DNA of 41,146 nt from Candidatus Dormiibacterota bacterium (GTDB taxonomy: Bacteria > Chloroflexota > Dormibacteria > Aeolococcales > Aeolococcaceae). The DNA is taken from the NCBI GenBank assembly GCA_003141695.1, contig PLNE01000067.1, positions 1 through 41,146 on the forward strand. Direction: 5' to 3'. Each line of letters starts with the position of its first letter. Positions within the stretch are counted from its first letter, which is position 1. Shown here piece after piece: positions 36,875-39,038 of the stretch. The position numbers were made by a program, and so were the translations under genes. Under the pieces are notes generated by a model. It was not told the origin of the DNA. It did no database searches and saw only the letters and a program-made list of their open reading frames with translations.

Positions 36875-36951
36875 CCCAGGGTAGCCAAGTTGGTCAAGGC
36901 AACGGTCTGTAAAACCGTGTATCGCTGGTTCGAGTCCAGCCCCTGGGACCA
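36875..36951 (+). tRNA. tRNA-Tyr (anticodon GUA), class I, archaeal/eukaryal-like
   Basis: A full cloverleaf can be drawn. The acceptor stem is CCCAGGG/CCCTGGG and the D-arm GCC..GGC with GG in the loop. The anticodon arm ACGGT-CTGTAAA-ACCGT has GTA at 36909-36911. The variable loop GTATC is only 5 nt, and the T-arm is GCTGG-TTCGAGT-CCAGC. The discriminator is A73 and CCA is encoded (36949-36951). Bacterial tRNA-Tyr is normally class II with a long variable arm and a G1:C72 pair. Here the variable loop is short and the first pair is C1:G72, the identity features of archaeal/eukaryal tRNA-Tyr. The next gene, 68 nt downstream, is an archaeal-type TyrRS, its natural partner. Confidence 0.95.
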
Positions 36952-37019
36952 CCCCCCCGGGGTGCTACGGTCTCCGTCCCCGGGTCGCCCGAGGCACCCG
37001 CCCGTCCCCGAGGCTCCAG

Positions 37020-38177
37020 ATGACCAGCCCCCCCTCCCCCACTCCTGACATCACCCGCCGGGCGGCGCTGATCCAGCGCAACCTGGCCGAGCTGCTGACC
37101 CCGGAGGAGCTGCAAGCACTGCTGGTCACCGGTCAGCGGCTCCAGCATTACATCGGCTACGAGATCTCCGGCCGCGTCCACCTGGGCGGCGGACTGGTGT
37201 TGATGGCCAAGGTCCGCGACTTCCAGGAGGCGGGCGTCGACTGCAGCGTCCTGCTCGCCGACTGGCACACCTGGATCAACGACAAGCTGGGCGGTGATCG
37301 CGATCGCATCCGGCGGCTCGCCGTCTCCTACTACGGCGAGGCGATGAAGGCGTCGCTGCTCTGCGTCGGCGGCGACCCGGGGGCGCTGCGCCTCATCCTC
37401 GCCTCGGATGTCTATGCCGACCCCGCGCGCGACTACTGGGCCACGGTCATCGAGGTCGCCAAGCACACCTCGGTGGCCCGGATGCAGCGGAGCATCACCA
37501 TCCTCGGCCGCAAGGAGGGGGAGCAGCACGACTTCGCCAAGCTCATCTACCCGGCGATGCAGGCGGCCGACATCTTCGCGCTCGGGGTCCACATCGCCCA
37601 CGCCGGGATGGACCAGCGCAAGGCCCACGTGGTCGCGCGCGACGTGGCCACCAAGATCAGGGTCAATACTCTCCGCGACGCCGCCGGCACCGCCATCAAG
37701 CCGCTGGCCGCGCACAGCCCGCTGCTCACCGGGCTGCTCAAGCCGGACCGCTGGCCGGTGCCACCGGAGGAGCGCGCCGACGCACTCGCGGCCATGAAGA
37801 TGAGCAAGTCCAAGCCGCGCTCCGCGGTGTTCGTGCACGACTCCCCCGACGAGATTCGGGCCAAACTGCGCGGCGCCTTCTGCCCGCCGGGAGAGGTGGA
37901 GCTCAACCCGGTGATGGACTGGATCGAGCGGCTCTGCTTCGGTCTGGGGGACCCGGAGCTGCGCGTCGAGCGGAAGCCGGAGAACGGCGGGCCGGTGACC
38001 TTCTCGTCGATCCAGGAGGTACGCGATGCCTACGCGACCGGGGCGCTCCACCCCATGGACGCCAAGGCCGCCCTGGCCGACCGGCTGATCGACCGGCTCG
38101 AGCCCGCCCGCAAGCACTTCGCCGACCCGGAGCGGGCGGCGGCGCTGGCCGAGATGGAGTCGCTGATCACGGTCTGA
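37020..38177 (+). CDS. tyrS: Tyrosyl-tRNA synthetase, archaeal/eukaryal type
   Basis: 385-aa class Ic aminoacyl-tRNA synthetase charging tRNA-Tyr. Motifs in order: Y44 in YIGYEISG, the HIGH-equivalent HLGG (54-57), LLADWHTWINDKLGG (80-92), tyrosine-pocket residues in IYPAMQAADIF (Y177, Q181, D184), GMDQRKAH (Q199) and KMSKS (260-264). The YIGYEISGRVH / AGMDQRKAH pattern is that of archaeal and eukaryal TyrRS, not of bacterial TyrRS with its S4-like C-terminal domain, which is absent here. It is longer than the 306-aa Methanocaldococcus enzyme. ATG 37020 has GAGG 6 nt upstream. It sits directly after a matching class I tRNA-Tyr, suggesting acquisition or retention of a synthetase-tRNA pair. 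Confidence 0.93.
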   Translation: MTSPPSPTPDITRRAALIQRNLAELLTPEELQALLVTGQRLQHYIGYEISGRVHLGGGLVLMAKVRDFQEAGVDCSVLLADWHTWINDKLGGDRDRIRRLAVSYYGEAMKASLLCVGGDPGALRLILASDVYADPARDYWATVIEVAKHTSVARMQRSITILGRKEGEQHDFAKLIYPAMQAADIFALGVHIAHAGMDQRKAHVVARDVATKIRVNTLRDAAGTAIKPLAAHSPLLTGLLKPDRWPVPPEERADALAAMKMSKSKPRSAVFVHDSPDEIRAKLRGAFCPPGEVELNPVMDWIERLCFGLGDPELRVERKPENGGPVTFSSIQEVRDAYATGALHPMDAKAALADRLIDRLEPARKHFADPERAAALAEMESLITV

Positions 38178-38241: not shown

Positions 38242-39038
38242 TCAGCCTCCCAGCTGATACACGACGCTGACGCTGACGCTCAACTGCTCCGACCCCGCCT
38301 GCACGGGGACGGCCGAGCTCGCCTCGGGCGCGCCCACCGCGTACGAGATCGGCGGTGTGGTTGACGTCTGAGTGTTGTCCGTGATGGAGACGATGGGCCC
38401 GAGGGCGACCCCGGCGCCAGATGCGAGCTGCCCCGCCTTGGTCTTGGCATCGGCCATCGCTTGGGCGCGGGCCTGGGCCATGAGGGAGCTGGTGTCGCTG
38501 ATGGAGAGCGCCATCGACTCGATGCGGATGTCGTCGCCGACCGATCTTGCCGCGGCATCGAGGACGGTGCCGGCGGTGGTGAGGTCGCGGAGGGTCACCG
38601 CCACGGTCTCGTCCACCTGGTAGCCGGTGATCGACTGGCCGTCGCTCCCATAGACCGGGTCGATCGAGAGGCTCGCGGTCTGGATGTCGCTCTGGTTGAC
38701 GCCGCTGCCGCTCAGGGTCTGGATCAGAGAATTCGTCTCGCTCTCGTTCTGGCTGAGGGCATCGCTGGCGTGGGTCGCCTGGCTGGCAACGTCCATCTGG
38801 ACGTTGAGGGTGTCCGGGGTCCATAGACCTCGCCGGCGCCGGTGACGGTGATCTCCGGCGGGCCCACCTGGACAGCGGCGGAGGCGGTGTGCAGGTCGAG
38901 TGCCGCGGGCGGCGCCGTCGACCCGGACGAGCGGGTGAGGACGAGGGTGGCGACGACTGCGGCCACGCCGAGGAGGTAGACGAGCCGGGTGGCCAGCGGA
39001 CGCGAGATCGGCGAGGGGCGGGCGGCGGGGTCAGGCAT
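38242..39038 (-). pseudogene. SIMPL-domain (DUF541) protein, frameshifted
   Basis: Two overlapping minus-strand frames together make one SIMPL protein of about 265 aa. The N-terminal part (from ATG 39038, with GGAGAG upstream) has a signal-anchor helix (RLVYLLGVAAVVATLVLT) and the SIMPL opening ITVTGAGEVYG. The C-terminal part continues as TPDTLNVQMDVASQA, then NSLIQTLSGSGVNQSDIQT and a conserved body to 38242. The join near 38815-38830 requires one extra base. Either the gene is broken or the base call is wrong. SIMPL proteins are exported, of mostly unknown function. Confidence 0.75.

Follow-up and report, generated by a model that had tools for sequence, protein, structure and literature searches.

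The window, i.e., the whole stretch of 41,146 nucleotides of DNA that was analyzed, carries a tRNA-Tyr gene, which is followed 68 nt downstream and on the same strand by an open reading frame for an archaeal-type tyrosyl-tRNA synthetase (TyrRS) (Table 1). Both ARAGORN and Rfam identified tRNA-Tyr(gta) as the single tRNA in the window (RF00005, 68.9 bits, E 4e-13). Direct reading of the acceptor stem, CCCAGGG/CCCTGGG, yielded C1:G72, followed by A73 and the encoded CCA, while the variable loop is formed by the five nucleotides GTATC and the anticodon is GTA. The archaeal tRNA-Tyr identity set, whose rules have been reviewed (PMC9976931), consists of C1-G72, A73 and G34 U35 A36 without a long variable arm, and all of these are found in the window tRNA. 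No terminator-like site was detected by a consensus scan of the 68-nt spacer, and therefore co-transcription of tRNA-Tyr and TyrRS is possible.

Table 1. Coordinates of the tyrosine locus within the window.
Feature	Position	Strand	Remarks
tRNA-Tyr (GUA)	36875..36951	+	class I, 5-nt variable loop, C1:G72, A73, CCA encoded
tRNA-TyrRS spacer, 68 nt	36952..37019	+	terminator consensus scan
Tyrosyl-tRNA synthetase, archaeal type, 385 aa	37020..38177	+	no S4 domain found

The 385-aa TyrRS contains the motifs YIGYEISG, GMDQRKAH and KMSKS and reached 392.4 bits with NF006330 (archaeal TyrRS; PRK08560), for which the cut-off is 220, and 97.2 bits with TIGR00234 (bacterial tyrS), under the cut-off of 113.8. 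The sole Pfam match was tRNA-synt_1b (PF00579), the Pfam search revealing no S4 domain, and the closest solved structure is that of Pyrococcus horikoshii TyrRS (2cyc, E 5e-116). A preliminary description of this DNA had reported a GUA anticodon, a 5-nt variable loop, C1:G72 and A73 for the tRNA, and archaeal/eukaryal motifs without an S4-like domain for the synthetase. The former proved correct by direct reading, ARAGORN and Rfam, the latter by the motifs, NF006330 and Pfam. In addition, the ligand- and acceptor-contacting residues Y44, Y177, Q181, D184, Q199, R157 and R200 are conserved in the window enzyme; in Methanocaldococcus jannaschii (Mj) TyrRS they correspond to Mj Y32, Y151, Q155, D158, Q173, R132 and R174. 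These Mj residues take part in tyrosine binding and in contacts with the acceptor pair. An archaeal-type TyrRS from Dehalococcoidia (L115:3001-4149) displays KMAKS instead of KMSKS. Elsewhere in the window, on the minus strand at 38242-39038, a gene for a SIMPL-domain (DUF541) protein is apparently split into two overlapping open reading frames, possibly by a frameshift or an assembly error.

Host genome and distribution of the two tyrosine systems

The host is a soil bacterium of Ca. Dormiibacterota (a Dormibacterota/Chloroflexota relative) that is related to Ca. Changshengia. The nearest homologues of its TyrRS, at 91-97% identity, all stem from Dormiibacterota MAGs, one of them named Ca. 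Changshengia. As all genomes compared here, that of the host is a MAG, with a bin (G000) of 3.09 Mb, 79.6% completeness and 4.6% contamination. Within this bin PF00579, the family of class Ic synthetases, matched this TyrRS and TrpRS only, and of 42 distinct tRNA genes that were read one is a tRNA-Tyr; neither a bacterial TyrRS nor a second tRNA-Tyr was found in the 79.6% that the bin covers. Since the bin is no more complete than this, the absence of the bacterial system from the host bin alone is weak evidence. ARAGORN also called a tRNA-Pyl(cta) in the host bin at G000:C182:7124-7198 (L016, L269), which, judging from its sequence, is most likely a tRNA-Arg(UCU) misread through a one-position shift of the anticodon frame.

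The survey of the class comprised 60 relatives plus the host's own genome. In the window's family, 25 of 32 genomes (that of the host counted) possess archaeal-type TyrRS, in each case as the only type, four genomes from genera g9 and g12 possess solely the bacterial type, and three possess neither, G028 being discounted; none of the 32 truly holds both. All genomes from other families of the class (29/29) have bacterial-type TyrRS. The occurrence of the enzyme in 25 family genomes indicates that the presence of archaeal-type TyrRS is not due to chance. The tRNA could be typed as well in 39 class genomes, and its type agreed with that of the TyrRS in every one of them: tRNA-Tyr was class I with C1:G72 and devoid of the variable arm (V-arm) in the 22 family genomes with archaeal TyrRS, and it carried a long V-arm in the 17 class genomes with bacterial TyrRS, in 13 of which G1:C72 was directly read (Fisher test, about 2e-11, ignoring relatedness). 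Thus, the match between synthetase and tRNA, and their common departure from the bacterial norm, which the preliminary description had noticed at this locus, recur in the relatives. Among the bacterial-type tRNA-Tyr genes, those of family f4 (L232/L234/L235; G053, G051, G057) have an unusual D-arm region (start GGGTCGGC) and C for U at position 8.

In other Chloroflexota, a further 14 tRNA-Tyr with C1:G72 and no V-arm were identified in Dehalococcoidia-like, Anaerolineae and jk18 lineages that have archaeal TyrRS and no bacterial tyrS. Among genomes with archaeal TyrRS elsewhere, those of Omnitrophota and several from CPR retain the V-arm. Phylum-wide, the archaeal type was limited to 15 of 400 sampled genomes from three families, so that the pair is not common across the phylum; the preliminary description had stated that common occurrence would lower its novelty. 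The genes for tRNA-Tyr and TyrRS are adjacent in only some genera of the window's family, and also in an Anaerolineae MAG, Omnitrophota and Gottesmanbacteria. In several family genera (G009:C59, G011:C32, G020:C11, G024:C121, G012:C10 and others) TyrRS is located near an opposite-strand TrpRS-like gene, presumed to be trpS, the position beside tRNA-Tyr being that of the window's genus.

The archaeal type of the TyrRS could point to a contig of archaeal origin contaminating a bacterial bin, and cross-contamination of CPR/DPANN bins is known (PMC5370408). However, the TyrRS gene (GC 0.702, GC3 0.94) equals the rest of the window, the enzyme recurs in 25 bins of the family and its closest homologues are, as stated above, all Dormiibacterota; there is next to no probability of such contamination, which was rejected on the grounds of composition and recurrence. 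The pair could also be a second system beside a bacterial TyrRS/tRNA-Tyr that was missed in the incomplete bin, and both enzyme types do occur together in one Gottesmanbacteria MAG (G101). Against this, no family genome with archaeal TyrRS has bacterial tyrS, including those that are 98, 92, 91 and 91% complete, and none was present in the Chloroflexota relatives checked. The sole apparent mixing, that of bacterial tyrS with class I tRNA-Tyr in G028, arose from a short contig on which tyrS neighbors argH, a gene for a 3-methyladenine glycosylase and the first part of an rRNA operon. This gene order is an actinobacterial arrangement; the bin has 6% contamination, and the mixed state was rejected because the contig was read as an actinobacterial contaminant. 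A second system is thus extremely unlikely; the preliminary description had left it undecided whether the pair is the only or a second one, and neither the host bin nor near-complete relatives yielded more than one.

Phylogeny of TyrRS and the anticodon contact

In a TyrRS tree including archaeal PDB rows, all Chloroflexota-lineage sequences formed one clade (100/99; 98/97 without the PDB rows), inside which the window's family was supported by 100/96. The sampled sequences from DPANN, CPR, Omnitrophota and a Helarchaeota were placed outside this clade. In principle the tree has no root, and its archaeal sampling consists of the 80 nearest loci and three PDB sequences; on this basis the enzyme falls among archaeal-type sequences, in agreement with the assignment for which the preliminary description had proposed a phylogeny as a check. 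The Chloroflexota-lineage clade also holds one MAG labelled Planctomycetales (L125), in which no tRNA-Tyr was found by pattern search and which represents either a mislabelled bin or a further transfer. An rpoB tree supported the window's family (100/99) and did not reject the grouping of all archaeal-type genomes as one clade (AU p 0.23). A single replacement is compatible with this tree, and a reversal in g9 and g12 is also possible.

The enzymes of the clade have a common deviation at one putative anticodon contact. N322 of the window TyrRS occupies the position of Mj F261. In M. jannaschii, F261 stacks on the anticodon base G34. The position is non-aromatic (N, H, S, R or D) in all 54 rows of the Chloroflexota-lineage clade, whereas 43 of the 46 rows outside it have F, Y or W there, and judged by the alignment a changed anticodon contact appears to be common to the clade. 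As the equivalent of F261 is non-aromatic, anticodon recognition in the clade may differ from that in archaea. The change is a variation of the contact site and not a defining feature of the NF006330 family. The idea that an F261-to-N change adapts the enzyme to queuosine at G34 was tested by a search for tgt, which was present in most tested genera of the window's family, with no match in g13 or f78. There was also no match for tgt in any of the four genomes of the window's genus, g1 (G000, G002, G004 and G006).

Origin of the system

Transfer of an archaeal TyrRS, along with a tRNA-Tyr that was either switched or co-transferred, very probably replaced the bacterial system, leaving the pair as the single essential tyrosine system of the lineage. 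An ancestor within the Chloroflexota/Dormibacterota lineage would have gained a TyrRS of archaeal type, with relatives among the enzymes of DPANN and other archaea, after which the bacterial TyrRS present before would have been lost together with its tRNA-Tyr, which had a long arm and G1:C72; the tRNA gene may have come with the enzyme or may have been rebuilt from a bacterial tRNA. The TyrRS would charge class I tRNA-Tyr by archaeal rules (GUA, C1:G72, A73), with no need for a long variable arm. We infer, then, that the enzyme is active in charging, that the pair is essential and that the transfer ran from archaea to bacteria.

Replacement by transfer has a variant which concerns the origin of the tRNA only, namely that TyrRS alone was transferred, tRNA-Tyr being not imported but derived from a bacterial tRNA already present in the cell, through inversion of the acceptor pair and loss of the variable arm. 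Such a route exists, as the combination of C1:G72 with a retained bacterial V-arm in archaeal-TyrRS members of CPR and Omnitrophota shows (PMC5370408), and the core of the window tRNA is no less similar to resident tRNA-Cys (82%) and bacterial tRNA-Tyr (82%) than to Helarchaeota tRNA-Tyr (80%). However, the CCCAGGG acceptor, the class I form and related TyrRSs are common to the Dormibacterota family, the Dehalococcoidia-like and the jk18 lineages, and the tRNA and enzyme genes are neighbors in Dormibacterota genera as well as in an Anaerolineae MAG, Omnitrophota and Gottesmanbacteria; we regard rebuilding as plausible but less likely than not. A covariance model and patterns retrieved no DPANN tRNA-Tyr and returned other tRNAs, probably because introns are frequent in archaeal tRNA-Tyr. 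It is unlikely that the system constitutes a third form adapted to bacteria, in which an archaeal-derived TyrRS, its anticodon pocket remodelled by the clade-wide loss of the aromatic residue at the Mj F261 position, is combined with a class I tRNA-Tyr that descends from a rebuilt bacterial tRNA of the host, with a possible reversal to the bacterial system in g9 and g12. Finally, the fact that one TyrRS clade covers several Chloroflexota classes might suggest that the common ancestor of the phylum already had the archaeal-type system, which the other lineages then lost. Given the 15 of 400 genomes in three families, however, and the many independent regains of bacterial TyrRS and long-arm tRNA that would be needed, this is very unlikely.

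Relation to known systems

Tyrosine and tryptophan identity was long believed to be a barrier to interdomain transfer of synthetases (PMC5370408). CPR bacteria have since been found to possess archaeal/eukaryal-type TyrRS with C1-G72 tRNA-Tyr, the V-arm being retained in many of these tRNAs and missing from one in Roizmanbacteria (Mukai et al., 2017; PMC5370408). That bacteria can have archaeal tyrosine identity is therefore already known, and the 2017 report lowers the novelty of the window pair. A search of open-licence literature yielded no report of an archaeal-type pair in Chloroflexota/Dormibacterota. New here are the full replacement in a non-CPR lineage, the V-arm-free tRNA and the use of either system among close relatives. 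A basic component of the genetic code would accordingly be swappable between domains outside CPR, the only bacterial group known so far, and the archaeal identity set apparently serves as the sole tyrosine system across most of a non-CPR family whose close relatives keep the bacterial set. These genomes thereby offer a natural series in which the course of a tRNA identity switch can be tested. The pair is predicted, from known identity rules only, to be orthogonal to bacterial TyrRS/tRNA-Tyr, and the enzymes are bacterial-genome-derived candidates for orthogonal TyrRS/tRNA pairs.

With the archaeal TyrRS/tRNA-Tyr systems of P. horikoshii (2cyc) and M. jannaschii, the window pair shares the fold family, the motifs, the lack of an S4 domain and the tRNA identity elements, but it differs from them by residing in a bacterial genome, by N322 in place of the aromatic Mj F261 and by a tRNA gene that encodes the CCA. 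In the sister families f2, f3 and f4 and in genera g9 and g12, the same cellular role falls to bacterial TyrS and a class II tRNA-Tyr; in contrast to this system, the window enzyme is below the TIGR00234 cut-off and has no S4 domain detected, and the tRNA is without V-arm and G1:C72. The CPR system (PMC5370408) resembles that of the window in its bacterial host, archaeal-type TyrRS and C1:G72 tRNA-Tyr. However, here the host belongs to Chloroflexota/Dormibacterota, the variable arm is absent, the enzyme clade is apart from the sampled CPR sequences (100/99) and replacement of the bacterial system extends across most of a family.
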